The position numbers were made by a program, and so were the translations under genes. Positions 1,413 through 14,895 of a stretch of DNA of 15,540 nucleotides are shown here, in pieces (the first letter of the stretch is position 1; each line of letters opens with the position of its first letter). This DNA comes from Haloferacaceae archaeon. Its GTDB lineage: Archaea > Halobacteriota > Halobacteria > Halobacteriales > Haloferacaceae. Under the pieces are notes generated by a model, which was not told where the DNA came from, made no database searches, and saw only the letters and a list, made by a program, of their open reading frames with translations. Location of the stretch: the NCBI GenBank assembly GCA_018609965.1, contig JAHENP010000223.1:1-15540 (forward strand), written 5' to 3'.

Positions 1413-1438
1413 GAAGTGCATGTAGTGGACAATTTTAT
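1413..1438 (+). promoter_or_regulatory. Promoter of the aminotransferase gene with shared palindrome (site A)
   Basis: GAAGTGC-N9-ACAATTT at 1413-1435 matches the window-wide palindrome GWATTGT-N9-ACAATWC at 11 of 14 positions. It overlaps a TATA-like TTTTAT at 1433-1438, which lies 26-31 nt before the GTG at 1464. The palindrome centre is 40 bp upstream of that GTG. Confidence 0.55.
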
Positions 1439-1463
1439 CAGGATAGGTCACCACATCACAGAC

Positions 1464-2609
1464 GTGAACACACCAGCGCGGAGGGCGGTGAGCGGACTCA
1501 CGCCGATGGAGCTTCGTGCGGACGTGCCGGCGCTCGACGAGGATGCGTACTTCAACTACGGCGCGCACGGGCCGAGCCCACGGTACGTCGTCGAACGGGC
1601 GGAGTCGTTTCTCGCCGATCACGAGTTCACCGTGCCGGCGACGGGCGACCCGTACCAGCACGCGTTCGACACGTACGACGAGGTGCGCGAGCGGGTCGCC
1701 CGGTTCGTGAACGCCGCACCCGCGGAAATCGCGCTGACGGAGTCGACGACCGCGGGGATCAACGCGGTCGCGGACGGGATCAGTTGGGACGACGGTGACG
1801 TGGTCGTCAGGACCGACCTCGAACACCCCGCCGGAACGCTTCCGTGGCGGCGGCTGGAGCGGGCGGGTGTCGAGGTCAGAACCGTCCCGACGGAAGGGGG
1901 TCGGATCGACCGCGACGCGTTCGTCGACGCGGTCAGGGACGCGAAGTTGGCGTGTTTTAGCGCGATCACGTGGACTCACGGCACACGGCTCCCGGTCGCC
2001 GAGTTGGTCGAGATCGCACACGACGCCGGGGCGCTCGCACTCGTCGACGCCGTGCAGGTGCCCGGACAGGCCGAGTTGGATGTCGACGCCTGGGGCGCCG
2101 ACGCGGTCGCCGCGGCAGGACACAAGTGGCTTCTCGGGCTCTGGGGCGGCGGGTTCCTCTACGTCGACCGCGCGGTCGCGAGCGAACTCACACCCAGACG
2201 GGTTGGCTACCGGAGCGTCGACGACCCGAGCGACCCGGCGGTGTCGTTCGCCCCGGGCGCCGAGCGGTTCGAGGTCGGCTCGGCGAACCCGGCGCCACAC
2301 GTCGCGCTGTCGGAGGCGATGGACACGGTTCGTGCGGTCGGGATCACGACGATCCGCGACCGGATCGCGGCGCTGACCGAACGGTTCACCGATGCGGTGC
2401 CAGAGAAACGACTGCTGACGCCGACGCCAGCGGACTCCGGGCTCGTCACCGTCGACGCCCGCGATCCGCAGACGACGGTCGAACGCCTCGCAGGCGACGG
2501 GATCACCGTCCGGTCGCTGTCGGACCCCGACGCAGTGCGAGTGTCGATTCACGCCGTCAACACGGCCGAGGAGGTCAACAGACTCGCCGACGCGCTCGTC
2601 GAGTCGTGA
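1464..2609 (+). CDS. Class V aminotransferase (cysteine-desulfurase fold, no catalytic Cys)
   Basis: PLP-dependent enzyme of 381 residues in the class V aminotransferase/SufS-like family. The N-terminus contains YFNYGAHGPSP, the middle has DAVQVPGQ (PLP-binding Asp, about residue 195), and the Schiff-base lysine is in AAGHKWLLG (about residue 221). RFEVGSANPAP follows. Cysteine desulfurases need a cysteine on a C-terminal loop. The only cysteine here (in LACFSAITW, about residue 164) is upstream of the PLP lysine, so desulfurase activity is unlikely. A lyase, epimerase or aminotransferase reaction is more likely; the substrate is unknown. The GTG at 1464 is chosen because a TATA-like box lies 26-31 nt upstream, which fits a leaderless transcript. 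An ATG at 1506 is the main alternative. The gene has its own promoter carrying site A. Confidence 0.85.
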   Translation: MNTPARRAVSGLTPMELRADVPALDEDAYFNYGAHGPSPRYVVERAESFLADHEFTVPATGDPYQHAFDTYDEVRERVARFVNAAPAEIALTESTTAGINAVADGISWDDGDVVVRTDLEHPAGTLPWRRLERAGVEVRTVPTEGGRIDRDAFVDAVRDAKLACFSAITWTHGTRLPVAELVEIAHDAGALALVDAVQVPGQAELDVDAWGADAVAAAGHKWLLGLWGGGFLYVDRAVASELTPRRVGYRSVDDPSDPAVSFAPGAERFEVGSANPAPHVALSEAMDTVRAVGITTIRDRIAALTERFTDAVPEKRLLTPTPADSGLVTVDARDPQTTVERLAGDGITVRSLSDPDAVRVSIHAVNTAEEVNRLADALVES

Positions 2610-2669
2610 CTGTGTCGGCAACCGTCGAGTGACCCCCAGCCGGGCAGTTGCGGCGGCGTTCACACTGCG

Positions 2670-2699
2670 TAGTTGTTCACAAAACGCACAACACTTTTG
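2670..2699 (+). promoter_or_regulatory. Promoter of the winged-helix regulator gene with variant palindrome (site B)
   Basis: TAGTTGT-N11-ACAACAC at 2670-2694 is an inverted repeat (GTTGT with ACAAC) that resembles the shared motif but has an 11-nt spacer instead of 9. It abuts a TATA-like CTTTTG at 2694-2699, 25-30 nt before the ATG at 2724. Its centre is 42 bp upstream of that ATG. The inner segment AAACGCACAACAC resembles AAACCCACAATAC in the tusA promoter. Confidence 0.45.
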
Positions 2700-2723
2700 C
2701 CAGCACGAGACGTACAGTCGTGT

Positions 2724-3119
2724 ATGGCAAACTCCATCGACGGCTACCTCCAACAGGACATCGAGTGTGAGGGGTTGTTAGAGTGTTTCTACGGGTTGAA
2801 GGAGCTCGACCTGGTCGTGTTCGACGAACTGGCAGAGGCTGAGGAGGCGTTGACGGTCGACGAGGTCGCCGAGCGGGTCGACCGAGAGCGGTCGACGGCA
2901 TACCGGTCGGTGCGACGGCTCGTCGACACCGGGTTCGTGGAGCGGGAACAGATCAACTACGACCAGGGCGGCTACTACCACGTGTTCACGCTGACCGACC
3001 CGGACGAGGTCGCAGACGAACTCAACCGGATGCTCAACGACTGGTACGCGAAGATGGGGCAGTTGATCGACCAGTACCGCGAGGAGTACGACCAGCCGGC
3101 AGTCGCCGCGAACGGGTAG
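2724..3119 (+). CDS. Winged-helix (TrmB/ArsR-like) regulator with two N-terminal Cys
   Basis: Small DNA-binding protein of 131 residues. An N-terminal helix with DIECEGLLECFYGL carries Cys15 and Cys21, the only cysteines. A winged helix-turn-helix follows at about residues 30-92: LTVDEVAERVDRERSTAYRSVRRLVDTGFVERE, then a wing YDQGGYYHVFTLTD. The C-terminal helix (about 93-122) could dimerise. It has the length of a stand-alone TrmB-type winged-helix protein with no sugar-binding domain. A thiol-based TrmB-family regulator (OxsR) is known in Haloferax, so redox or persulfide sensing by Cys15/Cys21 is plausible but inferred. The ATG is placed 25-30 nt after a TATA-like box (leaderless). Its promoter has a variant of the palindrome seen elsewhere in the window, so autoregulation is possible. 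The HTH call is strong; the effector is unknown. Confidence 0.85.
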   Translation: MANSIDGYLQQDIECEGLLECFYGLKELDLVVFDELAEAEEALTVDEVAERVDRERSTAYRSVRRLVDTGFVEREQINYDQGGYYHVFTLTDPDEVADELNRMLNDWYAKMGQLIDQYREEYDQPAVAANG

Positions 3120-3121
3120 AT

Positions 3122-3203
3122 CGCTCCCGCCGACTGTCGAGTTACTGTCGTCCGCTCCCGCCGGTTGTCGGCCGTTACCGCCGCCCACTCCCGCCGGCCG
3201 TCG
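3122..3203. repeat. Three degenerate 18-bp direct repeats in a convergent gap
   Basis: Copies at 3122-3139, 3153-3170 and 3186-3203 follow CRCTCCCGCCGRNYGTCG closely (starts 31 and 33 bp apart). They fill the gap between the 3' ends of the converging regulator and amidotransferase genes. A looser fourth copy may continue near 3225. Function unknown; it could be simple duplication or a termination-associated element. Confidence 0.5.
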
Positions 3204-3226
3204 CCCAATTTATCAGCTGTCAGTCG

Positions 3227-3961
3227 TCACCGCCGACCGTCGGTCGTCCGTGGAGTCGGTTCACTCGCCGTCGGCTGGTGGTCGACGGCCAGATCACGGA
3301 AGTTGTCGAACAACCCCTTCGTCGCGTCGGCGGCCGCGACGGCCTCGTCGGTGATCGTCTCTCGGGCCGCCGCCAGCCGCTCGTCGGGCAGTTGTTTCCC
3401 GTCGATCACCCACGACGCCGTCTGGCGGTCGTACTCCGGGTGGAACTGGACGCCGTACGTCCGACCGACGCGGTAGGCCTGGACGCCGTAGGGGTTGCGC
3501 GCGAGCGTCGTCGCTCCCGGCGGGAGTTCTGCGACCCGGTCGGAGTGTGTCTCGAAGCTCGTGAGCGTCGCCGGCAGGCCGTCGAACAACGGGTCGTCGC
3601 CGAGCCGTTCGACAGACCGGTAGCCGAGTTCGTACTCCCCCATGTCGACGACGCGGCCACCTAGCGCCTGCGCGAAGAACTGGTGGCCCCAACAGACACC
3701 CAGTGCCGGCACGCCGGCCGCGTGGACGCGACGGCCCCAGTCGGTCAGCTCGTGAATCCAGTCGCGATCGTCGTAGACGGCAGTCTGGGAGCCGCTGACG
3801 ACCACACCGTCGAACGACCAACGGCGACTCGCTGGGGTCGGCGGGCGCTCCCCCGCGCTGGCTTCGAAGACGGTCGTCCCCGCGTCCAGTTCCCGCTGGA
3901 AGTTCTGTTGGGCCGGTGTGTCGCCGATCGACGCGTCGACGACTGCGATCTGTGCGGTCAC
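3227..3961 (-). CDS. Type 1 glutamine amidotransferase
   Basis: Stand-alone class I glutamine amidotransferase domain of 244 residues, resembling the glutaminase half of GMP synthase. The nucleophile elbow GVCWGHQFFAQALGG places Cys90, and VQFHPEYD places the catalytic His174 and Glu176, so the Cys-His-Glu triad is complete. The partner that would accept ammonia is not in the window. Proteins of this type are often annotated only as GMP synthase-like, and some hydrolyse gamma-glutamyl bonds instead. The GTG at 3961 is chosen because TATA-like AGTTATC (minus strand, about 3983-3990) lies 22-29 nt upstream; the reading frame extends to 4030 but lacks family similarity there. The promoter carries site C. 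Its connection to the sulfur genes is suggested only by the shared motif. Confidence 0.85.
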   Translation of the reverse strand: MTAQIAVVDASIGDTPAQQNFQRELDAGTTVFEASAGERPPTPASRRWSFDGVVVSGSQTAVYDDRDWIHELTDWGRRVHAAGVPALGVCWGHQFFAQALGGRVVDMGEYELGYRSVERLGDDPLFDGLPATLTSFETHSDRVAELPPGATTLARNPYGVQAYRVGRTYGVQFHPEYDRQTASWVIDGKQLPDERLAAARETITDEAVAAADATKGLFDNFRDLAVDHQPTASEPTPRTTDGRR

Positions 3962-3982
3962 AAACTCAGTAGTCGCTCGACA

Positions 3983-4012
3983 CCGATAACTATTGCTCGA
4001 AATACACAATTC
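3983..4012 (-). promoter_or_regulatory. Promoter of the amidotransferase gene with shared palindrome (site C)
   Basis: CTATTGC-N9-ACAATTC at 3990-4012 matches the palindrome at 12 of 14 positions with the standard 9-nt spacer. On the minus strand it abuts a TATA-like AGTTATC, and its centre is 40 bp upstream of the GTG at 3961. It lies between divergent genes and could also act on the gene at 4154. Confidence 0.55.
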
Positions 4013-4153
4013 TAGTGACTGTCCGACCACGCGTTACGGCGAACAGCCTACCGGTGAGAAACCGCCTAGTTCGCTTTCGGGTTCGTCGAACGATAAACCA
4101 GCAACAGTGTCCGGTAGTCGCGGGTTCAGGTGTCTGTGGGAGTATTGTTAGAT

Positions 4154-4375
4154 ATGGAAAAGAACGTAGGCGGTTCCGACGGGCTGGTCAGAGTGCTCGC
4201 GGGTGCGGTGTCGGGTGTGTTGTCGTTGGCCGTGTTGGGACAGATGGTCGCGTTGCCGGCCCTCGCCTCCCCGGTGTTGGGTGTGTTGGCGCTCCTGTTG
4301 CTGGTGACGGGAACGGTGAACGTCTGTCCGTTGTACAGCGCGCTCGGGGTCGGTACGCGCGGCAGCAGGCGCTGA
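4154..4375 (+). CDS. DUF2892 (YgaP-like) inner-membrane protein
   Basis: Small membrane protein of 73 residues. It begins MEKNVGGSDGLVRVLAGA, as DUF2892 proteins do, has two hydrophobic segments (about residues 15-33 and 38-56), and ends with the family's VCPLYSALG signature, including its single conserved cysteine. In E. coli YgaP the same module is fused to a rhodanese domain; here it stands alone near sulfur-transfer genes, so a membrane role in sulfane-sulfur handling is plausible. An in-frame GTG at 4130 is an alternative start, but the ATG gives the usual family N-terminus. A perfect palindrome half-site GTATTGT at 4142-4148 sits just before the ATG. A TATA-like GATAAAC near 4091-4097 would give a short untranslated leader. 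Confidence 0.8.
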   Translation: MEKNVGGSDGLVRVLAGAVSGVLSLAVLGQMVALPALASPVLGVLALLLLVTGTVNVCPLYSALGVGTRGSRR

Positions 4376-4498
4376 CCACGAATCTGTCGAGCGTCGTCGG
4401 GACGGTCAAACGGCTACGTCGGAAGCGTCGATTTAGTGATCGGGAGTTGGCGTGGGCCAACCGGTATTCTACGTCCGTGTAGCGCGTATGACCTGTGC

Positions 4499-5005
4499 AT
4501 GCCACCCGAGACGCAGCAGGACACGGCAGAGCAGTCCGAGGATGCAGACACAGACGAGCGTGCGGTCGTTCGTCTGCTCCGGTCGGCGTACCTCGAAGAG
4601 CTGGAAACGGTGATGAACTACCAGACGAACGCCATCGTTCTCGACGGCGTTCGTGCAGAGGAGATCAAGGAGAACCTCCGCGCGGACATCCAAGAGGAGC
4701 TGGGCCACGCGGAGGCGCTCGGAGAACGGCTCAAGCAGTTGGGTGAACGGCCGCCGGGGTCGGCGGAGTTCGACGCCGTCCAGGATTCACTCCAACCGCC
4801 GACAGATTCGACGGACGTACTGGCGGTGATCGACGGCGTACTCGACGCGGAGGGTGACGCAGTCTCCACGTACCGCGAGTTGGTTGAGGCGGCAGAGACA
4901 GCAGGCGATCCGGTGACTGAGGATCTCGCGGTCGAGATCCTCGCCGACGAGGAGGCACACCGGAGTGAGTTCCGTGGCTTCGCGAAGGAGTATCGGTCGG
5001 AGTAG
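4499..5005 (+). CDS. Ferritin-like diiron protein
   Basis: Acidic, mostly helical protein of 168 residues with a ferritin-like four-helix pattern: Glu in YLEELETVMNYQ (about residues 33-36), ExxH at Glu67-His70, Glu118 in DAEGDAVSTYREL, and a second ExxH at Glu151-His154. This is the full ligand set of a carboxylate-bridged diiron site, as in ferritins and rubrerythrins. No rubredoxin CxxC domain is present. The first 20 residues are a low-complexity acidic leader. It could store iron, or remove peroxide or oxygen. The ATG at 4499 is chosen over upstream codons because family similarity begins after it. It is followed by a hairpin and the converging cox genes. The link to sulfur metabolism is by proximity only. 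Confidence 0.82.
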   Translation: MPPETQQDTAEQSEDADTDERAVVRLLRSAYLEELETVMNYQTNAIVLDGVRAEEIKENLRADIQEELGHAEALGERLKQLGERPPGSAEFDAVQDSLQPPTDSTDVLAVIDGVLDAEGDAVSTYRELVEAAETAGDPVTEDLAVEILADEEAHRSEFRGFAKEYRSE

Positions 5006-5075
5006 TCGGGGCCACTGCCCCGTGTCGTCGGGCGACCGGCGCACGACAGAACGCGACTGAGACGCCGGGTGACAG

Positions 5076-5096
5076 AGGTCGCGGCTGTCGCGACCT
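5076..5096. terminator. Hairpin between converging genes, possible bidirectional terminator
   Basis: AGGTCGCG at 5076-5083 and CGCGACCT at 5089-5096 form a perfect 8-bp stem with a 5-nt loop. It lies between the stop of the ferritin-like gene (5005) and the stop of the oppositely oriented membrane gene (5103). No T-tract follows on either strand, so a terminator role is uncertain. Confidence 0.4.
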
Positions 5097-5102
5097 GTCC
5101 GT

Positions 5103-5507
5103 CTACTTCTGTGGCGACACCACTGCCGTCCGTCGGAGCGTGTCGTACCCAGCCCGGACAAGCAGCGCGACGGCAGCGACCGCAAACGCGAGTCCGCGCA
5201 CCCCGAGTGGATCGCCCACCGGTTGGACGACCCACAACAGACTCACAGCCACGACCGCGTACAACCCGGCGACGGCGGCGAGTCGCCGACCGCTGCCGCT
5301 GGCGTCGGCGAGCGAGGTCTCACCGAGCAGTTCGGCGACACTCCACCCGAACAACGAGAGACCCACCGCCGCGACGACGGGACGACCGAGCAGTACACCC
5401 ACCTCCGCGCCGGCGAAGCCGAATGCGACGAAGACGTGGTAGAGACTCGACTCGTGGCCGGGCGCGTGTGACCGCGTCGGCGTCCCGTCTGTAGTCGGTC
5501 GGGACAC
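5103..5507 (-). CDS. Small membrane protein of the cox cluster (DUF7541-like)
   Basis: Membrane protein of 134 residues with about four hydrophobic segments (approximately residues 24-41, 44-62, 74-94 and 102-118) after a hydrophilic N-terminus that contains SHAPGHESSLYHVF. It starts with GTG only 2 nt after the stop of the oxidase subunit I gene, which indicates cotranscription and coupling. Haloarchaeal genomes commonly carry such a protein after cytochrome oxidase subunit I, annotated only as 'cox cluster protein'. A role in oxidase assembly or stability is inferred from this position. No cofactor-binding motif is seen. Confidence 0.75.
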   Translation of the reverse strand: MSRPTTDGTPTRSHAPGHESSLYHVFVAFGFAGAEVGVLLGRPVVAAVGLSLFGWSVAELLGETSLADASGSGRRLAAVAGLYAVVAVSLLWVVQPVGDPLGVRGLAFAVAAVALLVRAGYDTLRRTAVVSPQK

Positions 5508-5509
5508 CG

Positions 5510-7426: not shown

Positions 7427-7491
7427 ACCACAGCGGTGCCACTGGTAACAACTGAAAAGTCGCTTGGCGTGTGCCAACCCGTGGGAACACC

Positions 7492-8385
7492 TCACTCACC
7501 GCGCGCGATGGACGCCCCGACGAGACTCCCCCACTCCGTCCACGAACCGTCGTAGTTGCGGACCTGTTCGTAGCCGAGCAGCTCCGAGAGCACGAACCAC
7601 GTGATCGAGGATCGTTCACCGATTCGACAGTAGGCGATCACACCGTCACGGCTGACACCCGCCTCCTCGTAGATCGACGCCAGCGTCTCCCGTGACTTGA
7701 ACCGGCGGTCGGGGCCGACGTTCGTCGACCAGACGACGTTCGTCGCGCCGGGGATGTGGCCGCCGCGAACGGCAGTCTCGTCCATCCCCGGTGGGGCGAT
7801 CAGGTCGCCACGGAACTCCTCCGGGAGCCGGGCGTCGACGATGGTCGTCTCGTCGTCGAGCGCGCGCATCACGTCGTCTCGGTATGCACGGACGGACTCG
7901 TCTGCCGTCGGAGTCGGGTAGGAGACGGCAGGGTACGACGGCACCTCGTCGGTCGTGGGCATGTCGTGTTCCATCCAGTACTCTCGGCCACCGTCGAGAA
8001 TTCGAACGTCTGCGTGGCTGTAGTACGTCGCGAGCCAGTAGAAGTTCGTCGCGAACCAGTTCGCGTTGTCACCGTACACGACGAGCGTGGTGTCTGGCCC
8101 GACTCCGTGGCTCTCTAACAGTTCGGCGAACCCGGCCGGCGAGACGACATCACGGACATCCTCGGCCTGGAGATCCATCTCCCAGTCGATCCCGACGGCA
8201 CCCGGGATGTGGCTGTCGTCGTAGAAGGACGGATTCACGTCCACCTCGACGAGTCGCAACCCGGGGTCGTCCGTCCGGAACTCGTCGAGTCGGTCTTCGA
8301 CCCACTCGGGAGAGACGAGTGGTGTCGTCTCCGTCGACGGGTGTCCAGTCGACCGAGAGTCCTCACTCGGCGGCACGTCACTCAT
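7492..8385 (-). CDS. Thiosulfate sulfurtransferase, two rhodanese domains
   Basis: Tandem-domain rhodanese of 297 residues. The N-terminal domain (about residues 25-150) has an inactive loop, VVYGDNANWFA, without cysteine. The C-terminal domain (about 165-295) carries the active loop AYCRIGERSS with catalytic Cys253, and the motifs VDARLPEEFRG and GGHIPGATNV. This is the standard arrangement of thiosulfate:cyanide sulfurtransferases; the Arg-rich loop fits thiosulfate better than mercaptopyruvate. It would transfer the sulfane sulfur of thiosulfate to thiol acceptors such as TusA or thioredoxin. The ATG at 8385 (MSDVPPSED) is chosen because the upstream frame is low-complexity. It lies 64 nt after the HTH-10 gene on the same strand, so cotranscription is possible. 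A weak TATA-like CTTTCG lies near 8408-8413. Confidence 0.92.
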   Translation of the reverse strand: MSDVPPSEDSRSTGHPSTETTPLVSPEWVEDRLDEFRTDDPGLRLVEVDVNPSFYDDSHIPGAVGIDWEMDLQAEDVRDVVSPAGFAELLESHGVGPDTTLVVYGDNANWFATNFYWLATYYSHADVRILDGGREYWMEHDMPTTDEVPSYPAVSYPTPTADESVRAYRDDVMRALDDETTIVDARLPEEFRGDLIAPPGMDETAVRGGHIPGATNVVWSTNVGPDRRFKSRETLASIYEEAGVSRDGVIAYCRIGERSSITWFVLSELLGYEQVRNYDGSWTEWGSLVGASIARGE

Positions 8386-8449
8386 TATCCGTACAAACTC
8401 ACTCCGTGTCGAAAGGTCTGCCGGAGACGCCAGCAGCCGGGACCACTGC

Positions 8450-9169
8450 TCAGTACCAGCCGTCGACGTACGCTTCGGTGAGTGCGGCGGTCGCACGGCG
8501 GAGTCGGTAGGAGGCAGTCGAGCGGGCGACACCAAGTTCCGAGGCGAGTTCGTCGACGGAGACAGCGCGTGGCTCCTCGAAGTAGCCGCGCTCAACAGCC
8601 AGCTCCAGCGTTTCTCGTTGCTCTTCGGGGAGCGAGACCTGGCCGGCGAGTGGGTTGTGCCACCGCTCGGCCTGCTCGACGGAGTCGAACTCGACAGAGA
8701 CCGCGTCCGCGAGCCGACCAGTCACCGCGTCGTACATCATCCCGACACGTTCGTCGTCACGGACCAACACCCGCCACGTCGCCATCGCCCCCTCGCGGAC
8801 GACCTCGAACAACGCCCCGCCGTCGAGATACTGCGTGGCGACAGTCGGGACAGCGTCGTGGTACTGGATCTCGGTCGCGTGCGTGTACAGGATACGGTGT
8901 GAGGCGTCCGACTCCAACACACTGTGGTGGCGGTCTGCCTGGGAGTTCCGGCCGCTGATCGACTCCCGGTCGACCGTCTCGTCTTCGAGCAGGGGGTCGG
9001 CAGCGGCGAGCGCGTCGTGGTCACCGGTGACGAGCTCCAGTCGCCAGAACTCGTTCGGATCGAGACAGGAGACGAGCGCTTCCGAACGGAGCGTGCCGTG
9101 GTCCCGGAGGAAGTCGACGTAGTCGTTGACTCCCTCGTCGTAGACGAGAGAGAACTGGAACTCTCGCAT
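8450..9169 (-). CDS. Bat-type HTH-10 transcriptional regulator
   Basis: Regulator of 239 residues typical of the large haloarchaeal Bat/HTH-10 family. The N-terminal sensory part begins MREFQFSLVYDEGVNDYVDF. The C-terminal helix-turn-helix (about residues 178-239) reads LPEEQRETLELAVERGYFEE followed by VSVDELASELGVARSTASYRLRRA. The ligand of the N-terminal half is unknown; it contains a single cysteine (in VSCLDPNEFWRLEL). The gene sits between the YeeE/YedE pair and the sulfurtransferase on the same strand, so control of thiosulfate uptake or use is a reasonable inference. The ATG at 9169 matches the usual family N-terminus; an upstream in-frame start at 9247 adds residues without similarity. 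Confidence 0.88.
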   Translation of the reverse strand: MREFQFSLVYDEGVNDYVDFLRDHGTLRSEALVSCLDPNEFWRLELVTGDHDALAAADPLLEDETVDRESISGRNSQADRHHSVLESDASHRILYTHATEIQYHDAVPTVATQYLDGGALFEVVREGAMATWRVLVRDDERVGMMYDAVTGRLADAVSVEFDSVEQAERWHNPLAGQVSLPEEQRETLELAVERGYFEEPRAVSVDELASELGVARSTASYRLRRATAALTEAYVDGWY

Positions 9170-9286
9170 CTCGTTGTCGTTCAGTCCCGGGAGTGGAACC
9201 GGTTTCGGTCTGTTAGCTCTGGACCCGATTGCGTCTACTCGGGCCACACCCCCGTGTCTACAGGACAGCCGAGAGGCGAACCACCC

Positions 9287-9748
9287 TCAGTCGTCCGCGG
9301 TCGCGGGTGTCGCGCCGCGCTCGCTCCCACGAGACCGCCAGACACCCTGGAGATACGCGCCGAGGAACATCCCGGCGAGTGCCCACAGGATGGTGACGTT
9401 CCCGATTCCGATGCTGGCGTACGCCGCGCCCGGACAGATGCCCGAGATTCCCCAGCCGACGCCGAAGACGACCCCGCCGACCGCAACGTTACGGTCCATC
9501 GACTTCAGCCGGCGGCCGTAGGTGTCGCCGGTCAGCGGTGCGCGATCACGGAGTCGCGGGACGACGAAGAAGACCACACTCGACACGACCGCCGCGCCAC
9601 CCATCACGAACACCAGTCCGAGGTCGTCGAACTGGAGGAAGTCGAGCACGACCTCCGGGCGTGCCATCCCGCTGTACGCGAGCCCGAACCCCTCGATCAC
9701 CCCGCCGAGAACGATCAACGGGTAGAACAACGGGTGTCTGTCGCTCAC
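9287..9748 (-). CDS. YeeE/YedE family half-transporter, C-terminal half (DUF6691-like)
   Basis: Membrane protein of 153 residues with about four hydrophobic segments. The motif GVGWGISGICPGAAYASIG holds Cys105 and is the second of the paired GxxxxxGxCPG repeats of the YeeE/YedE thiosulfate transporters. Full-length YeeE proteins contain both repeats in one chain of about 350 residues; here they are separate genes. The GTG start at 9748-9746 overlaps the TGA stop of the preceding gene as GTGA, which indicates translational coupling and a 1:1 complex. Thiosulfate passage in YeeE uses conserved cysteines, and Cys105 is the obvious counterpart here. It precedes the HTH-10 regulator by 117 nt. Confidence 0.88.
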   Translation of the reverse strand: MSDRHPLFYPLIVLGGVIEGFGLAYSGMARPEVVLDFLQFDDLGLVFVMGGAAVVSSVVFFVVPRLRDRAPLTGDTYGRRLKSMDRNVAVGGVVFGVGWGISGICPGAAYASIGIGNVTILWALAGMFLGAYLQGVWRSRGSERGATPATADD

Positions 9749-10245
9749 GGCGTCACCCCCAGGGCGGCGACGACGGCGGCCGTCGCGATCGCGACCCCGA
9801 CGAACACGGCGACGTTGAGAATCGAGGTCCGCGATCCGGAGCCCAGCCCACAGACGCCGTGGCCGGCCGTGCAACCCTTCCCGACTCGGGTGCCGATCCC
9901 GACGAGAATCCCGCCGAGGAACAACCGCCACGGCTGGACCTCGGTGAGGAACGGACCGGGGTCCAACACCAGCCCCCACAACGCCGCGCCGGCGACGATA
10001 CTCACGGCGAACACGACCCGCCAGTCTCGCGACTCGACGAACTGTCGTTGTTGGAACTGCGACTGGTCGGAGACGTACGACAGCGTCGTCTCCAGGAACG
10101 TGCTGTTGCCGGGTGAGATCGCGGTCGCGACGTAGATCACGCCGATCCCCGTCGCCACCAACAACCCACCGACGGCGTACTGTCCGATCCCACGCGGGAA
10201 CAACGCCTCCAGGCCGCCGAGCTGTGCGAGGATGCTCGTCACCAT
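9745..10245 (-). CDS. YeeE/YedE family half-transporter, N-terminal half
   Basis: Membrane protein of 166 residues with about four hydrophobic segments. GIGTRVGKGCTAGHGVCGLG contains Cys125 and Cys132 and is the hallmark GCTxGHG motif of YeeE/YedE transporters, which import thiosulfate in bacteria (YeeE/TsuA). The segment SDQSQFQQRQFVESRDWR lies between membrane segments. The ATG at 10245 is chosen: GAGGGTGA lies six bases upstream as a possible ribosome-binding site, and the frame's upstream ATG at 10305 falls within the promoter. It overlaps the second half-transporter by 4 nt. A 12-codon ORF (10277 to 10239) ends within its first codons. Divergent from tusA, with 231 nt between starts. Confidence 0.9.
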   Translation of the reverse strand: MVTSILAQLGGLEALFPRGIGQYAVGGLLVATGIGVIYVATAISPGNSTFLETTLSYVSDQSQFQQRQFVESRDWRVVFAVSIVAGAALWGLVLDPGPFLTEVQPWRLFLGGILVGIGTRVGKGCTAGHGVCGLGSGSRTSILNVAVFVGVAIATAAVVAALGVTP

Positions 10246-10277
10246 CGTCTCACCCTCGCCGCGTCCGTCGTACTCAT
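10239..10277 (-). CDS. Possible 12-codon leaderless upstream ORF before yeeE/yedE
   Basis: ATG at 10277-10275 opens a 12-codon frame, MSTTDAARVRRW, whose TGA at 10241-10239 overlaps the first codons of the transporter gene (ATGGTGA). A TATA-like TTATTG on the minus strand at 10303-10308 lies 26-31 nt upstream, so transcription should begin at or near this ATG. Peptide function is unlikely; translational coupling is the likelier role. Speculative. Confidence 0.25.
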   Translation of the reverse strand: MSTTDAARVRRW

Positions 10278-10296
10278 GTGGTCTCCTCTTGTTCCC

Positions 10297-10319
10297 GAAT
10301 TGCAATAAGGCTTCACATC
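10297..10319 (-). promoter_or_regulatory. Promoter of the YeeE/YedE operon with weak palindrome (site I)
   Basis: GAATTGC-N9-TCACATC matches the shared motif at 10 of 14 positions (left half 6 of 7, right half 4 of 7). On the minus strand it overlaps the TATA-like TTATTG at 10303-10308. This is the weakest member of the set with the standard spacer. Confidence 0.35.
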
Positions 10320-10411
10320 TACAACGCTATCGGGGCGGTCGCTCCCGACCAGAACCCAATTTATGGCTTTAGACCGTCTTTGCGGTCGATTGTGATATAC
10401 GACCCAGGATT

Positions 10412-10450
10412 GACTGGTGAGAAACCCACAATACAGTCGACATGCTTATA
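10412..10450 (+). promoter_or_regulatory. tusA promoter with shared palindrome (site D)
   Basis: GACTGGT-N9-ACAATAC at 10412-10434 matches the shared palindrome at 12 of 14 positions. TATA-like CTTATA follows at 10445-10450, 27-32 nt before the ATG of tusA. The palindrome centre is 54 bp upstream of the ATG, farther than at the other sites. The string GGTGAGAAACC here also occurs at 4051-4061. Confidence 0.55.
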
Positions 10451-10476
10451 CCAATCCCCACCCAACGAACAGGTGG

Positions 10477-10722
10477 ATGAGTTCGACTGTCGACGCGACG
10501 GAGACACTCGACGTACAGGGACAGAACTGCCCGATGCCGGTCGTCAAGACGAAACAGGCGGTCGACGAGTTAGACGCGGACGGCGTGTTGGAGGTGCTCG
10601 CGACGGACCCCGGGAGCGTGAGCGACATCGCGGGGTGGGCCGAGTCCGCCGACGAGTTCGAACTCGTCGATCAGAGCGAGGACGGCGATGTCTACCGCCA
10701 CTACGTCCGGCGGACGGCCTGA
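10477..10722 (+). CDS. tusA: TusA-family sulfur carrier
   Basis: Sulfur relay protein of 81 residues. The family signature is intact near the N-terminus: TLDVQGQNCPMPVVKTKQAV, with the persulfide-carrying Cys18 in the CPxP motif (NCPMPV). The rest gives the beta-alpha fold: GVLEVLATDPGSVSDIAGWAE, then a final FELVDQSEDGDVYRHYV strand. It would receive sulfane sulfur from the sulfurtransferase or the DsrE protein and pass it on. The ATG is placed 27-32 nt after TATA-like CTTATA, a clear leaderless start. Its TGA is separated by 1 nt from the ATG of the DsrE-family gene, so the two form an operon and probably a functional pair. The sequence does not separate tRNA-thiolation from sulfur-catabolism TusA, but the context favours the latter. 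Confidence 0.95.
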   Translation: MSSTVDATETLDVQGQNCPMPVVKTKQAVDELDADGVLEVLATDPGSVSDIAGWAESADEFELVDQSEDGDVYRHYVRRTA

Positions 10723-10723
10723 G

Positions 10724-11305
10724 ATGAGCACCGACACACCGGCCGGGCCGACAGACGAGCCGAGTCGAGCGGAGCTTGCGGCTCGTGTCGCCGAGTTGGA
10801 AGCGGAGTTGTCGGAACTCGGCGAGGACGTCGCCGCCGCCCAGACGGAGGACAAGATGGTGATTGTCGCCACCCAGGGCACCCTCGACATGGCGTACCCG
10901 CCGTTGATCCTCGCGTCGACGGCCGCGGCGTTTGGCTACGACGTGACCGTCTTCCACACGTTCTGGGGGTTGGAGATTCTCCACGAGGACCACGCGAGCG
11001 AACTCTCGTTGTCGGCGGTCGGCAACCCCAACCTCTCGGTGCCCAACGCCGTCGCGGCGTTGCCCGGGATGGACGCCGTGACGAGCCGGATGATGCGCCA
11101 GAAGATCGACGACGAGAACGTCGCCAGCATCGAGGAGCTGATCCAGACCTCGTTGGACACTGGTGTCGACCTGCAGGCGTGTCAGATGACGATGGAGCTG
11201 TTCGACTACGAGGAGACGGCGTTCTTCGAGGGTGTCACGACCGGCGTAGGCGCCGCGACCGCGTTCCAGGAGATGGCCGAGGCAGACATCCAGTTGCTCG
11301 TCTGA
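10724..11305 (+). CDS. DsrE/DsrF/DrsH-like sulfurtransferase (DsrE2-type)
   Basis: Protein of 193 residues. A charged coiled-coil-like leader (about residues 14-40) precedes the DsrE fold, which begins DKMVIVATQGTLDMAYPPLILASTAAAFGYDVTVFHTFWGLEIL. The likely active residue is Cys153 in DLQACQMTMELF, matching the ACQMSM-type motif of the DsrE2 group. It is the only cysteine. Such proteins accept and donate persulfide sulfur with TusA, often next to rhodanese genes, as here. The ATG follows the tusA stop by 1 nt, so translation is coupled. Membrane-associated DsrE2 proteins exist, and the segment after residue 60 is moderately hydrophobic. The family call is firm; its exact partner is inferred from gene order. 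Confidence 0.92.
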   Translation: MSTDTPAGPTDEPSRAELAARVAELEAELSELGEDVAAAQTEDKMVIVATQGTLDMAYPPLILASTAAAFGYDVTVFHTFWGLEILHEDHASELSLSAVGNPNLSVPNAVAALPGMDAVTSRMMRQKIDDENVASIEELIQTSLDTGVDLQACQMTMELFDYEETAFFEGVTTGVGAATAFQEMAEADIQLLV

Positions 11306-11550
11306 GTTCTCGCGACACAGCTTTCCCGGACCACTCTGCTGCAGGCAACACCTCGGGTGTCGTGTTCCTCGGTCGTTCGATACCAACACACAACTCTACA
11401 CAGTCGTGGGTCCGGCCACCGTTCGACCCTCGACGTTCGAGCGCGTGCGACACGAGCGACGAGAACACCACACGCGAGCCGTCAGCCTGTCGTCTCCGAG
11501 GTAACGACCTGATAACTTACGTGAGGCTACGCATCAGACACGCGAATATA
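11306..11550. other. Non-coding stretch between the DsrE-family gene and the TauE operon
   Basis: Part of a gap of about 340 nt. Frames crossing it on both strands have shadow-like Arg/Ser/Pro compositions and no recognisable family. No tRNA, strong hairpin or long repeat was seen. AT content rises towards 11550, where the promoter begins. It may hold the 3' end of the tusA transcript. Confidence 0.5.
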
Positions 11551-11581
11551 GTATTGTACAAGTAGTCCAACACTGTTTTGG
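11551..11581 (+). promoter_or_regulatory. Promoter of the TauE/SafE operon with shared palindrome (site E)
   Basis: GTATTGT-N9-CCAACAC at 11551-11573 matches the shared palindrome at 12 of 14 positions with a perfect left half. TATA-like TTTTGG follows at 11576-11581, about 26 nt before an ATG at 11604. The palindrome centre is 42 bp upstream of that ATG. A second, weaker match, GATATGC-N9-CCAATAC, lies at 11601-11623. Confidence 0.5.
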
Positions 11582-11603
11582 GGACTCGGAGTAACAGACA
11601 GAT

Positions 11604-11663
11604 ATGCAGCGAACTTCCAATACTACGGTGACGGTCGAACGGGGGAACGATGCTGGGTGTTGA
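11604..11663 (+). CDS. Possible 19-codon leaderless upstream ORF before the TauE operon
   Basis: ATG at 11604 is at the spacing expected for a leaderless start after TATA-like TTTTGG. The frame runs 19 codons (MQRTSNTTVTVERGNDAGC) to TGA at 11661-11663 and overlaps the next gene's ATG (11650) out of frame by 14 nt. No family is recognised. It may serve to bring ribosomes to the downstream start. Speculative, but it mirrors the ORF at 10239-10277. Confidence 0.25.
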   Translation: MQRTSNTTVTVERGNDAGC

Positions 11664-11796
11664 GTCGGCTGCAGCGACACAGGCGGGTGTCGTCATCGGC
11701 GCGGTGCTCGTCGAGGCGTTGTTGTTGTACGTCGGTTACGGCGCCTTAGAGCGAGTGGCCGGACCATGGCTGACACGCAGGCTGGAGGGTCGGTAG
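11650..11796 (+). CDS. 48-aa single-pass membrane protein (DUF7512-like)
   Basis: Very small protein of 48 residues. It has a short polar N-terminus, one hydrophobic helix (about residues 11-32, QAGVVIGAVLVEALLLYVGY) with a glutamate in the membrane, and a basic C-terminus after GALERVAGPW. Its TAG stop is 1 nt before the ATG of the TauE/SafE gene, so the two are certainly cotranscribed and probably coupled. In haloarchaea a protein of this form (I recall it as DUF7512) often sits beside TauE/SafE genes, so it may be a small subunit of the exporter; that is inference. The coding call rests on haloarchaeal codon use, the membrane helix and tight spacing. Confidence 0.75.
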   Translation: MLGVESAAATQAGVVIGAVLVEALLLYVGYGALERVAGPWLTRRLEGR

Positions 11797-11797
11797 T

Positions 11798-12829
11798 ATG
11801 GAGCTGTTCGGTGTCGCCGTGAGCCTGCTCGGCACCTTCGCCGGGTTCGGGCTCCTCGTTGGGCTCCTGTTCGGGTTCTTCGGGATGGGTGGATCGTTCC
11901 TCGTCACGCCCGCGTTGCTCGTGATGGGGTACGAGACGGACGTGGCGGTCGCCTCCGGGCTGGCGTTCGTGTTCGGCACCTCGGTGATCGCGACGCTGAA
12001 ACACCGCGATCTGGGGCAGGTGGACTACAAGCTGGGCCTCTCGATGATCGTCGGTACCACCGCCGGGATCGAGGTGGGGAAGATCGGCCTCCACTGGCTC
12101 CAACGGATCGGGCTGGCGAACGCTGTCGTCAACGTGTCGTACGTCGGGCTCCTCGGCGGGATCGGGGCGTTCGTCACCTACCGCGCGCTCGGTGACGGCG
12201 GTGGTGGGTTCGGTCCCGACGAGGACGCCGACGCGCCCGGCGACAGAGAGCTTCCGCCGGTCGCACAGAAGATCCAGTCGTACCAGGTGCCGCCGATGTT
12301 GGAGCTGCGTGGCGGTGTCGTTGTCTCGCTGTGGATGGTGTTGTTCGTCGCGTTCGCGACGGGGCTCCTGTCGGGGTTCCTCGGCGTCGGCGGGGGATTC
12401 ATCCGGATGCCGGCGTTGTTCTATCTGGTCGGCGTTCCCGTGCCGGTCGCCGTCGGCACGGACCTGTTCGAGATCGTGTTCTCCGGCGGGATCGGGAGCT
12501 TCCTGTACGCGCTCGACGGCGCGGTCGATCTGACGATCGTGGTCCCACTGCTGAGCGGGTCGGCGCTGGGCGCACGGCTGGGGGCCGCCGCGACGAGTGT
12601 CGTCGAAGAAGACGACATCCAGGTGTACTTCGGCGTGATGTTGTTGCTCGGTGCCGTCGCGGTCGCGATCCGGCAGATCGGCAGCGTGGTCGACGCGCCC
12701 GTGTTGGACACGGTCGCGCTCGTCGTGATCGTCGGAGCCGCACTGCTCGTCAGCGGAGCGATCGTCGTCAGCTCCGTCCGCGAACTCCGTACGGACGAGC
12801 GGACGGACGCGACACGCACTGCCGACTGA
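11798..12829 (+). CDS. TauE/SafE family anion permease (sulfite exporter-like)
   Basis: Membrane protein of 343 residues with about eight hydrophobic segments in two repeats. Each repeat has the glycine-rich family signature: LLFGFFGMGGSFLVTPALLVMG near residue 25 and GLLSGFLGVGGGFIRMPALFYLVG near residue 190. An acidic loop (about residues 134-165, GGGGFGPDEDADAPGDREL) separates the halves. TauE/SafE proteins export sulfite, sulfoacetate or related organosulfur anions. With a persulfide-oxidising enzyme encoded next door, sulfite or thiosulfate is the most likely substrate. It starts 1 nt after the 48-aa gene. The last 20 residues are a charged cytoplasmic tail. Confidence 0.92.
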   Translation: MELFGVAVSLLGTFAGFGLLVGLLFGFFGMGGSFLVTPALLVMGYETDVAVASGLAFVFGTSVIATLKHRDLGQVDYKLGLSMIVGTTAGIEVGKIGLHWLQRIGLANAVVNVSYVGLLGGIGAFVTYRALGDGGGGFGPDEDADAPGDRELPPVAQKIQSYQVPPMLELRGGVVVSLWMVLFVAFATGLLSGFLGVGGGFIRMPALFYLVGVPVPVAVGTDLFEIVFSGGIGSFLYALDGAVDLTIVVPLLSGSALGARLGAAATSVVEEDDIQVYFGVMLLLGAVAVAIRQIGSVVDAPVLDTVALVVIVGAALLVSGAIVVSSVRELRTDERTDATRTAD

Positions 12830-12849
12830 GACTCTGTCTTGTCGGCCGC

Positions 12850-12930
12850 TGATCGAGGTTCCGTCTCGTCGACTACTGATCGAGGTTCCGTCTCGTCGAC
12901 TGTTAGTCGAAATTCTGTCTCGTCACTCGG
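12850..12930. repeat. 27-bp tandem repeat, three copies, in a convergent gap
   Basis: Units at 12850-12876 and 12877-12903 differ only in the last two bases; both begin TGATCGAGGTTCCGTCTCG. A third, diverged unit at 12904-12930 begins TAGTCGAAATTCTGTCTCG. A remnant may lie at 12829-12849. The array occupies the gap between the stops of the converging TauE/SafE and rhodanese-MBL genes. An open frame through it encodes only a TDRGSVSST repeat and is not considered a gene. Confidence 0.85.
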
Positions 12931-13023
12931 ACGCGGTTCAGGAACACTGCGTCTCGGCGAGTCAGCTACAGAAACGAGTCGACGATCAAAAAGAGTCGGA
13001 CGGTCGGAGCCGTTGTATCGGCC

Positions 13024-14214
13024 TCAGTCGCCGGCCATCGACCCCTGACTGGCGGCGCAGTTGTTCGGCCCGAGTTCCAGCCGGAACGCCTCGTCGTCGT
13101 CGACCGCCTGTTGGCCGAGGTTGGTCGCGATGATCGCCTCGTAGTTCGCCGGCCGGGGCGGCATGTCGGCCAACACCGTCTCGACAAACCGATCTTCCTC
13201 GTAGGTCAGCGCGTCCATCTCCTCGACGAGTCGGCCGATGGGTGCGGTGTAGCTCCCGTCGGCGGCCGGCTCTGCGGCGTCGCTGACGTGTGCGCCGCCG
13301 ACCAACACGTCGTCGTCGAGCGAGAGGATACGTTCCTGGAGCGTCTCGTACAGCTGTCGGGCGGCGTCGGGCGCGCCGTCGTCACCCTCTTCGAGATCCG
13401 GCCGGGCGACGCTCTCGACGAACAACCCGTCACCCGTCGCCAGCAGCGAGTCGCCGACGAGATACGAGGTCATCCCGGAGGTGTGGCCGGGCGTGTGGAC
13501 CGTCTCGATCTCGATGTCGCCGACGGTGAACACGTCACCGTCCGCGGCGGTCGACACCTCGTCGTCGTAGGTGACGCCCCGCGGGACGGCCTCGGACGGG
13601 ATCACGCCCACGCTTGTCTCGTTCAGATCACGCACACCGCTGACGTGGTCTGCGTGGACGTGTGTGTCGAGTGCGTACACCAACTCTGCGTCCAGCGCCG
13701 CGACGTCGTCCGCGTACCGGTCAGTGAACGACCGCAACGGGTCGATCACCGCCGCCTCGCCGTCGGAGACGACGAGGTAGCCGAGACAGCCGGAGGAGGG
13801 ACGGTGGTACTGGTAGGCCGTCCCCGGGCCGTCGTAGCCGTCGATCTCCGTGCGTTCGTAGATCCGGGCCCACGCCTCCATCCCGCCGTCGAGGTGGACC
13901 ACGTCGCGGCCGGCCGCGATCAACTCGCCGGCGACGTACTCGCTTGCGCCACCCTTCGCACACAACACCACCAACGGGTCGCCGACCGGCACCCGGTCAA
14001 GGAGCGCCTCGTCGATCTCCTCGCCGAGGAACTCGTAGTAGGGGACGTTCACGATTTCCACGTTCGGCCCGTCGACGTGCCACTCCGCGAAGTCGGAGTC
14101 GTTCCGCGCGTCGAGAACGGTCACGCTGTCGCCGTCGGTGATTGACCCTCTGAGTTCGGTCGCGGTCGTCGACTGTACCTCGACATCCGGCGTCGGAAAG
14201 TCCTCTGGGTTCAT
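13024..14214 (-). CDS. Rhodanese / metallo-beta-lactamase fusion, persulfide dioxygenase-like
   Basis: Fusion of 396 residues. The N-terminal rhodanese domain (about 15-120) has active Cys85 in VVLCAKGGAS and GGMEAW. The metallo-beta-lactamase domain (about 130-310) has the metal motif THVHADH (His185, His187, Asp189, His190), His240/His244 in HTPGHTSGM, Asp262 in GDGLF, and VARPDL. These fit the ETHE1/Blh/CstB group of non-heme iron persulfide dioxygenases, which convert persulfide to sulfite; a coupled rhodanese can form or use thiosulfate. In CstB-type fusions the rhodanese is C-terminal; here it is N-terminal. About 85 C-terminal residues follow, with two cysteines in the whole protein outside the rhodanese (Cys143, Cys386). 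The ATG at 14214 follows TATA-like TTAAG (minus strand) by 29-34 nt. Its promoter carries the perfect palindrome, site F. Confidence 0.92.
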   Translation of the reverse strand: MNPEDFPTPDVEVQSTTATELRGSITDGDSVTVLDARNDSDFAEWHVDGPNVEIVNVPYYEFLGEEIDEALLDRVPVGDPLVVLCAKGGASEYVAGELIAAGRDVVHLDGGMEAWARIYERTEIDGYDGPGTAYQYHRPSSGCLGYLVVSDGEAAVIDPLRSFTDRYADDVAALDAELVYALDTHVHADHVSGVRDLNETSVGVIPSEAVPRGVTYDDEVSTAADGDVFTVGDIEIETVHTPGHTSGMTSYLVGDSLLATGDGLFVESVARPDLEEGDDGAPDAARQLYETLQERILSLDDDVLVGGAHVSDAAEPAADGSYTAPIGRLVEEMDALTYEEDRFVETVLADMPPRPANYEAIIATNLGQQAVDDDEAFRLELGPNNCAASQGSMAGD

Positions 14215-14242
14215 CTCCACCAGAGGGTAGGGTCGGGGGCTA

Positions 14243-14270
14243 CTTAAGAATTGTGAGCCAGTTACAATAC
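14243..14270 (-). promoter_or_regulatory. Promoter of the rhodanese-MBL gene with the perfect palindrome (site F)
   Basis: GAATTGT-N9-ACAATAC at 14248-14270 matches the consensus at all 14 positions and is the best copy in the window. It abuts TATA-like TTAAG (14243-14248, minus strand), with its centre 45 bp upstream of the ATG at 14214. Confidence 0.65.
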
Positions 14271-14457
14271 TATGAGAGAGAACGCGACGCCACACGTCTC
14301 ACACCGGACGCGACTCTCGATACTTTCCCGGAAGCGTTCGGTTTCGGTCGAAATTCGTCTCTGGTGGCGACGCGGGTCACGCTGATCGGATTTGCAGTAC
14401 GTTTTCACAGCTACACAGTCGATGTCGTGATCGGAGCGTCGCGGAAGTCTCTGGTCG

Positions 14458-14775
14458 TCACCCACCCGCCACGCGGGTTGTGACGAGCGTTGTCACCGCG
14501 AGCACCGGGATCGTGAGAATTGCGCCGGTGATGACGACGAACGGTGCCGTTGACGCGACCGGGTAGGCCAACACGCCCACCAACACGTCGACGACCGAGA
14601 CGAGAAGTCCGTACGCGACCGCCGCGAACGTCACCACCACCGCGAACACCGGCACCGCGACCGCCAACGGTGACTGCCCTGTCTCCTTGTCGTCTCCCGA
14701 CTCGGCTTCACCGGCTGTCGAGCTGTGTCTGTCGTCTCCCGACCCGGCTCCGTCGTTTCCTGCTGTCGTACTCAC
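14458..14775 (-). CDS. Hypothetical membrane protein, two transmembrane segments
   Basis: Protein of 105 residues, family not recognised. The first 35 residues are hydrophilic, Gly/Asp/Ser-rich and probably disordered. Two long hydrophobic segments follow (about residues 37-64 and 70-97). There are no cysteines, histidines in the membrane or known motifs. The GTG at 14775 is chosen because an A/T-rich AAAAGTG (minus strand, about 14799-14805) lies 25-30 nt upstream, giving a leaderless transcript; an earlier in-frame start at 14805 would fall inside the promoter. Site G lies between the TATA region and the start. It is divergent from the membrane gene at 14918, and both have the shared palindrome, so it probably belongs to the same regulon. 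Confidence 0.65.
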   Translation of the reverse strand: MSTTAGNDGAGSGDDRHSSTAGEAESGDDKETGQSPLAVAVPVFAVVVTFAAVAYGLLVSVVDVLVGVLAYPVASTAPFVVITGAILTIPVLAVTTLVTTRVAGG

Positions 14776-14778
14776 GTA

Positions 14779-14806
14779 GAATTGTACATTTTCTACACTT
14801 TTCAAC
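14779..14806 (-). promoter_or_regulatory. Promoter of the 105-aa membrane gene with shared palindrome (site G)
   Basis: GAATTGT-N9-ACACTTT at 14779-14801 matches the consensus at 12 of 14 positions, with a perfect half GAATTGT. Unlike the other copies it lies over the transcription start region (centre 15 bp from the GTG at 14775), which would suit a repressor. Confidence 0.45.
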
Positions 14807-14867
14807 CCGTCTACTCGGCTCGTTCCCTCCGCACTTCTCTCTCAGCACCGCTGTCATCTGCACGATG

Positions 14868-14895
14868 TCACTGTGGATAACCCACAATTCTTTCT
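14868..14895 (+). promoter_or_regulatory. Promoter of the 115-aa membrane gene with shared palindrome (site H)
   Basis: TCACTGT-N9-ACAATTC at 14868-14890 matches the consensus at 11 of 14 positions, with a perfect right half. Its centre is 39 bp upstream of the GTG at 14918. An internal perfect inverted repeat TGTGG-N5-CCACA spans 14872-14886. TTCTTTCT following it may serve as the TATA element. Confidence 0.5.

Follow-up and report, generated by a model that had tools for sequence, protein, structure and literature searches.

What controls the genes of a haloarchaeal sulfur island, and is the answer written in a palindrome that recurs between them? The window considered here is the whole 15,540-nucleotide contig JAHENP010000223.1 (C223), which belongs to a draft genome of a Haloferacaceae archaeon (2.61 Mb in 361 contigs, 74% complete). 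An earlier note on this DNA had pointed to a 23-bp palindrome, GWATTGTN9ACAATWC, at promoters across the window, and had proposed that one transcription factor governs a candidate sulfur regulon. We conclude, from sequence comparison, that the palindrome is very probably the operator of a TrmB-family regulator encoded at 2724-3119, which would control its own gene, through the site in its own promoter, together with a haloarchaea-wide set of sulfane-sulfur genes.

The first question was whether the palindrome exceeds chance. Allowing three mismatches, the pattern matches eight times in the window against 0.35 expected, and none of 200 dinucleotide shuffles reaches eight; all seven sites with a 9-nucleotide spacer were recovered with the match counts claimed for them. 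The eighth match, at 4142..4164 on the plus strand and beyond those seven, was rejected as a full operator: it scores only 6.0 with the matrix described below and consists of a left half-site, GTATTGT (4142-4148), overlapping the ATG of the YgaP-TM gene. That half-site is kept before the YgaP-TM start in both copies of a same-genus relative, G174, without a matching right half. With two mismatches the entire genome holds 10 sites, five of them in the 15.5-kb window, which is 0.6% of the genome, and the reversed control pattern gives two. Hits of this kind on contigs C34, C69 and C234 lie in scanned stretches without a score of at least 13 and were taken as chance; a further hit lies on C333.

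Because the consensus had been derived from this same window, we rescored the window with a palindromic matrix. Its weights were drawn exclusively from the regulator promoters of other species (80 relatives), and the earlier consensus served as the starting seed. Two loci were left out of matrix building: L068, whose contig begins within the gene and has hardly any upstream DNA, and L100 (score 4.7). The eight best places in the window are the sites already noted, with scores of 10.9-25.4. All eight are intergenic; the 13.3 kb of coding sequence contains no site and scores at most 6.3, and the expectation at a score of at least 10 is 0.16. Five matrices, each built from a random subset of 20 sites, return the identical top eight. 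The control that the earlier note had proposed, intergenic sequence of the same composition, yields 0.1-0.2 hits when simulated, and none of 896 simulated sets holds more than two. Two copies need correction. The site reported at 2670 as an 11-nucleotide spacer variant is genuine as a site, but the ordinary register at 2672 fits it better (16.6 versus 7.9), with a weak left half, and the separate spacer class falls away; the weak copy at 10297 scores 4.8, within background, though the element is similar in G174. The predicted sites and the candidate regulator are as follows, with scores of G174 counterparts in brackets where a direct one is listed.

1413..1435, plus strand: predicted operator before the class-V aminotransferase/cysteine-desulfurase-like gene (start 1464); score 13.3; overlaps a TTTTATC box (counterpart at L137 2822, 11.6).
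2672..2694, plus strand: predicted operator before the TrmB-family regulator gene (ATG 2724); score 16.6 (12.7).
2724..3119, plus strand: candidate regulator, 131 amino acids, a single-domain TrmB/Lrs14/OxsR-type winged helix with C15 and C21; PF01978, E 7.5e-15.
3990..4012, minus strand: predicted operator before the class-I glutamine amidotransferase gene (start 3961, minus strand); score 18.0.
10412..10434, plus strand: predicted operator before tusA-dsrE2 (start 10477); score 11.9 (14.6).
11551..11573, plus strand: predicted operator before a small membrane open reading frame (ORF; 11650) and tauE (11798); score 15.1 (12.6).
14248..14270, minus strand: predicted operator before a rhodanese/metallo-beta-lactamase (MBL) fusion gene, persulfide-dioxygenase-like (start 14214); 14/14 match, score 16.2 (18.2).
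14779..14801, minus strand: predicted site immediately upstream of a small gene's start codon (gene 14458-14775, whose sequence looks like that of a membrane protein); score 25.4 (20.8, at the equivalent position before the orthologous start).
14868..14890, plus strand: predicted operator ahead of a DUF7475-like gene (start 14918); score 10.9, the lowest among the eight.

The sites adjoin AT-rich boxes, and one might suppose that AT-rich promoter sequence simply looks palindromic by chance. To this explanation we give practically no credence: eight sites were observed where 0.16 were expected; 97 genomes contain 129 copies of a strict form of the palindrome, WTTGTRN7YACAAW, and 43 of its reversed pattern, which is thus threefold rarer (Wilcoxon 8e-8); and comparison with G174 shows the sites conserved while their flanks have diverged. 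Both G174 homologues of the amidotransferase gene are preceded by a site (15.2 and 24.7), and further sites in that genome precede a thioredoxin gene, an SBF transporter gene and a thioredoxin-reductase-like gene, the last named by eye. The G174 homologue of the DUF7475-like gene carries GTATTGTAC in its promoter, yet scores just 8.7. ORFs in G174 and around the strict palindromes came from a crude caller, and thioredoxin, thioredoxin-reductase and cytochrome names were given by eye where a fetched protein had no Pfam run.

Conservation at orthologous promoters, the second check proposed at the outset, extends well beyond the genus. The regulator's own promoter has a site scoring above 8 in 78 of 80 relatives, and the 79 regulator-promoter sites end 29-39 bp upstream of the start codon. 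We then counted promoters by gene class in the 80 loci, using homologues that reached 60% coverage and satisfied set identity limits. Two malformed regions, TrmB in L068 and the first YeeE in L108, were excluded because the gene extends past the beginning of its contig. At a score of at least 9, sites precede the regulator gene in 80/81 cases, tusA in 30/32, the tauE operon in 33/35, thioredoxin in 27/36 and rhodanese-MBL in 17/31; the corresponding means for 100 column-permuted matrices are 4.2, 3.0, 4.2, 3.6 and 2.7. Rarer classes gave 3/8 for the aminotransferase (permuted mean 0.2), 1/2 for the amidotransferase (0.1) and 2/29 for the first YeeE gene (0.2). The observed counts were reached by none of the permuted matrices for regulator, tusA, tauE, thioredoxin and aminotransferase, and by one for rhodanese-MBL. 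Operon-internal genes have no sites (dsrE2 0/26, permuted mean 0.05; second YeeE 0/32, 0.2), and the count is also zero for COX1 (0/2, 0.04), double rhodanese (0/1, 0.02) and YgaP-TM (0/1, 0). YeeE was discarded as a separate target, with 2/29 promoters; it follows rhodanese-MBL in most loci holding both. In the annotated plasmid pHH400 of Haloarcula hispanica, 28.4 kb contain 13 matrix hits of at least 9 at 11 distinct places, all within the 3.5 kb (12%) that is intergenic. They precede genes for DUF302, two trxA, M20, both tusA, MBL, the regulator and TauE, with one unassigned; the urease and nos genes of the plasmid have no hits at this score.

Which protein might read these sites? The product of 2724-3119 has one winged-helix TrmB domain (PF01978, residues 19-93 of 131) and no C-terminal ligand domain. 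It is matched at E ≤ 1e-15 in 374 of the 391 genomes of the class sample, and C15 and C21, in CEGLLEC-like motifs, are invariant in 80/80 regulator sequences. Its bit scores stay below the NCBIfam cut-offs for Sta1 (NF053606, 73.1 versus 80) and Lrs14 (NF040939, 47.8 versus 90), and none of its 11 Pfam hits is a CsoR-type family, TrmB being the best and the remainder mostly helix-turn-helix types. The closest solved relative is 3R0A (MM_1094; E 2.6e-10), whose C17 aligns with C21 of the regulator; in the accessible part of the OxsR study (PMC9426492), MM_1094 C17 forms inter-subunit disulfides with C6 and is aligned with OxsR C24. The regulator would bind the palindrome, probably as a homodimer, and C15 and C21 may sense sulfane sulfur, the presumed inducer, probably via a disulfide or polysulfide bridge between subunits (C15-C21'). 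On plasmid PHS3 of Halobacterium salinarum R1 the regulator gene (L258 12001-12405) adjoins an ISH8A transposase.

If this protein recognizes the palindrome, sites and regulator should travel together, and they do. Two of the 97 genomes lack the regulator, and both have zero strict palindromes. Across 17 genomes without a detected regulator there are three strict palindromes versus four reversed; the rate in the other genomes predicts about 23 (P about 2e-7 for so low a count). Of the 95 regulator-bearing genomes, 83 have a TusA match (a weak one in two of the 83, E about 3e-11), versus 0/17 without the regulator, and the nine rhodanese-MBL homologues of regulator-free genomes include one, in the draft genome G236, with a promoter site. 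The regulator, its sites and a main target come and go as a unit, which supports the idea of one factor for the entire set. A different factor could occupy the palindrome; one candidate, encoded in the same island, is the Bat/HTH_10-type protein (8450-9169). Bat homologues are found at just 3/80 regulator loci, however, the best score in the Bat promoter is -9.6, and the palindrome excess tracks the TrmB-family protein; we consider such a binder very improbable.

With the TrmB-family protein as the likely binder, we turned to how its sites are placed. The operator core is KTGYR-N7-YRCAM (typically TTGTR-N7-YACAA) within the 23-bp palindrome. TATA boxes were called by a simple rule, and promoters without a called box have none by that rule. 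A detected box begins 0-2 bp after the 23-mer in 68/79 regulator, 25/33 tauE and 16/27 thioredoxin promoters. At tusA it lies 9 bp after the site in 7/30 and at rhodanese-MBL 0 or 9-11 bp after it in 5/16, the others having none by the rule. Rhodanese-MBL promoters, read by eye, often consist of a left half and a degraded middle, with the right half displaced onward by one turn. In the tusA promoters of relatives (L052, L059, L120 and others) a second site, GTATTGTGCGATAGCTCCAATAC-like, often follows the TATA box, which is then bracketed. As to the window, the claim that each site adjoins a TATA-like box or lies within about 10 bp of it needs qualifying at two sites. By inspection of the printed sequence, a T-rich box is no more than 3 bp from six of the eight; for tusA the distance is 11 bp, and the site at 14779 is not upstream of its TATA-like box, assigned by eye, but between that box and the start codon.

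These positions bear on the sign of control. We favor, slightly, activation by sites abutting the box upstream, both because OxsR, the nearest studied relative, activates from upstream sites and because the TATA box keeps a constant distance from the site, either 0-2 bp or roughly one helical turn beyond that; where a site follows the box (the second tusA site and 14779), it would repress. The same regulator and regulon could instead work by repression throughout, in the manner of CstR, SqrR and BigR, the reduced dimer blocking TFB/TBP beside the TFB recognition element (BRE) and persulfidation releasing it. The core ends 3-5 bp before the detected TATA box in regulator, tauE and thioredoxin promoters and can therefore overlap the BRE, downstream sites are common at tusA in relatives, the 14779 site too follows its box, and the bacterial counterparts CstR, SqrR, BigR and YrkD are termed repressors in the accessible portions of the literature on them. 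Yet fixed spacing with one-turn steps exceeds the needs of a repressor, and the DNA binding of OxsR, an upstream activator of the same family, depends on its disulfide-forming C24 (PMC9426492, accessible part). We regard pure repression as a serious contender that falls somewhat short of an even chance.

A regulator that activates from upstream and represses from downstream, or one that only represses, would act on the same genes, and we asked how far these extend. Of the 129 strict palindromes we analyzed the surroundings of 63, taken from 75 of these places, on 60 stretches outside regulator loci. A called start lies 20-60 nucleotides downstream of 21 of them. The 21 genes, named by Pfam for ten proteins and by eye for the others, comprise five regulator orthologues, four thioredoxin-like and two CoA-disulfide-reductase-like genes, one each for rhodanese-MBL, an SBF transporter, another MBL protein, Usp, an SQR-like protein and an M20 peptidase, and four without a name. 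At other distances we found DCC1, DUF302, DUF1684, DoxX and IscA-like genes, and also genes without an evident sulfur link. Taken with the promoter counts, predicted sites precede genes for TusA, DsrE, rhodanese, persulfide dioxygenase, TauE, thioredoxin and SQR, or their operons, a set that would carry, oxidize, reduce or export sulfane sulfur (persulfide, polysulfide).

The same list invites another explanation, a general thiol or oxidant stress regulon (hypochlorite, disulfide) as for OxsR, with sulfur genes included as thiol relays. Its targets include thioredoxin, DCC1, CoA-disulfide-reductase-like and DUF1684 genes, and OxsR, which has its redox cysteine at the same position, also has thioredoxins, a CoA-disulfide-reductase homologue and DUF1684 among the targets given in the accessible text of PMC9426492. 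Here, however, the regulator's own gene, tusA and tauE recur most consistently as targets, along with rhodanese-MBL and SQR-like genes, and the OxsR motif in that text is a different, CG-rich one. A general stress regulon thus strikes us as possible but rather unlikely, and we retain the sulfane-sulfur gene set as the predicted regulon.

Several observations weigh against this conclusion. The figure of 78/80 is partly circular, because the matrix was seeded with the earlier consensus and the best site per promoter was chosen. Single permuted matrices can score high (at most 48/81 for TrmB at a score of at least 9); one equals the rhodanese-MBL count of 17, 9/100 reach the amidotransferase count (1/2) and 5/100 that of the first YeeE (2/29). 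Only 17/31 rhodanese-MBL and 3/8 aminotransferase promoters score well, and in the window itself the weakest sites are those at 10412 (11.9) and 14868 (10.9), the latter with the G174 counterpart of 8.7. Among the 63 strict palindromes, 11 fall inside called ORFs, and most others lack a called start at the distance typical of these sites; a strong site elsewhere in the same genome (C205:8384, L138, 20.2) precedes a gene with no nameable sulfur link. Regulator loss and target loss are not separated, because the 17 regulator-free genomes also lack tusA. "Regulator-free" here denotes a genome in which ten candidates or fewer were scored and none matched at E ≤ 1e-15; 5/17 of these genomes are less than 90% complete. 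Finally, G236, one of the genomes without a detected regulator, has a site of 12.8 located 30 bp before its rhodanese-MBL homologue.

The genes around the sites complete the picture of the window. By Pfam it encodes a thioredoxin, an SBF-type transporter, the class-V aminotransferase, the TrmB-family regulator, the glutamine amidotransferase, YgaP-TM, a ferritin-like protein, DUF7541, COX1, a double rhodanese, the Bat-type HTH_10 protein, two YeeE-like proteins, TusA, DsrE2, TauE, rhodanese-MBL, a small protein without a Pfam match and a CBS protein; the DUF7475-like gene scores slightly under its cut-off. The two membrane proteins listed as targets at the outset correspond to the genes at 14458-14775 (without a Pfam match) and 14918-15265. 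The principal neighbors of the sites are these.

1464..2609, plus strand: class-V aminotransferase, SufS/cysteine-desulfurase-like; PF00266; TIGR01979 150.8 bits, under the 475.1 cut-off.
3227..3961, minus strand: class-I glutamine amidotransferase; PF00117.
9287..10275, minus strand: YeeE/YedE sulfur-transport pair, without a convincing operator of its own; DUF6691, PF04143.
10477..11305, plus strand: tusA and dsrE2, sulfur carriers; PF01206, PF13686.
11798..12829, plus strand: TauE/SafE exporter; PF01925.
13024..14214, minus strand: rhodanese plus MBL protein, persulfide-dioxygenase-like; PF00753, PF00581.

Matches of the last protein to solved structures include persulfide dioxygenases (ETHE1, 4chl, E 4.6e-17; BpPRF, 5ve3, E 4.7e-14). 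A second rhodanese-MBL-like gene, judged by its N-terminus, lies elsewhere in the same genome (C224 4934, L139), with a canonical site of 19.5 about 30 nucleotides before the likely ATG. Separately, the window contains a second perfect palindrome, TTGGCN4GCCAA, at 4447-4460 and 7464-7477, upstream of the ferritin-like and COX1 genes. In G174 it also stands before a cytochrome-bd-like gene, named by eye. The 2.24 Mb of fetched loci hold only four copies, three of them in L137 (6244, 7226 and 18134) and one in L041 (16626). It may mark a possible second regulon, of terminal oxidases.

How does the predicted system compare with known ones? OxsR (HVO_2970) of Haloferax volcanii is likewise a small single winged-helix protein of the TrmB family (arCOG02242) with a redox cysteine at the same alignment position and sites near BRE/TATA; it differs in having one cysteine (C24), the motif CGGnCGnGCG and a hypochlorite regulon (PMC9426492, accessible part). 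The window regulator is not OxsR itself, because its predicted operator, KTGYR-N7-YRCAM, contrasts with OxsR's own CG-rich motif. Also of the arCOG02242 group is HVO_1360, an OxsR paralogue with C15 and C21 that the same accessible text proposes only as a heterodimer partner of OxsR, giving it neither a regulon nor a motif; its agreement with the window regulator is in cysteine numbering, taken from the description in that paper alone. Among bacteria, the YrkD-led cluster of Bacillus licheniformis contains DsrE, TusA, RHOD, persulfide dioxygenase, TauE, Trx and SQR, and the gene set of CstR (Staphylococcus aureus) and YrkD is that found here. CstR senses through a dithiol, by inter-protomer sulfide bridges, which we liken to the C15/C21 pair (PMC9774590, PMC9918477, accessible parts of both). 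These proteins are CsoR-like all-helical tetramers at bacterial promoters, unlike the winged helix beside an archaeal TATA box. SqrR and BigR, of the ArsR family, resemble the candidate in their description, where accessible, as repressors with two sensing cysteines and targets in the detoxification of sulfide and reactive sulfur species; they belong to another family, and cysteines 41 and 107 of SqrR bridge within one subunit, in contrast to the N-terminal CX5C here. SurR of the Thermococcales, also of the ArsR family, is archaeal and responds to elemental sulfur (PMC9426492, accessible part), but has another family and another gene set (H2 production and elemental sulfur metabolism). Neither the motif, the regulon nor a function for HVO_1360 appears among the matches listed in the open-access literature, subscription journals being mostly outside its scope. 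The kind of system is known; its family, operator and breadth appear new.

The proposal of a sulfur regulon is thus well supported, and has gained a candidate protein, a core, a TATA spacing, a wider regulon and a likeness to bacterial persulfide-stress regulons. In its fullest form, a dedicated TrmB-family sulfane-sulfur sensor in nearly all haloarchaea, invented independently of CstR, SqrR/BigR and SurR, would govern a convergent gene set by upstream activation and downstream repression around the TATA box; we put this whole picture only just below an even chance. If true, a regulator family matched in nearly every sampled haloarchaeal genome would acquire a function, a binding site and a list of targets. 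If the regulator belongs to the HVO_1360 family, as the cysteine positions suggest, the only mention in print that we found, in the accessible part of its source, is as a possible partner of OxsR. The finding suggests that the same persulfide-stress gene set came under unrelated sensors in archaea and in bacteria, and the system offers a clean test of how the position of a site relative to BRE/TATA relates to the sign of archaeal control.

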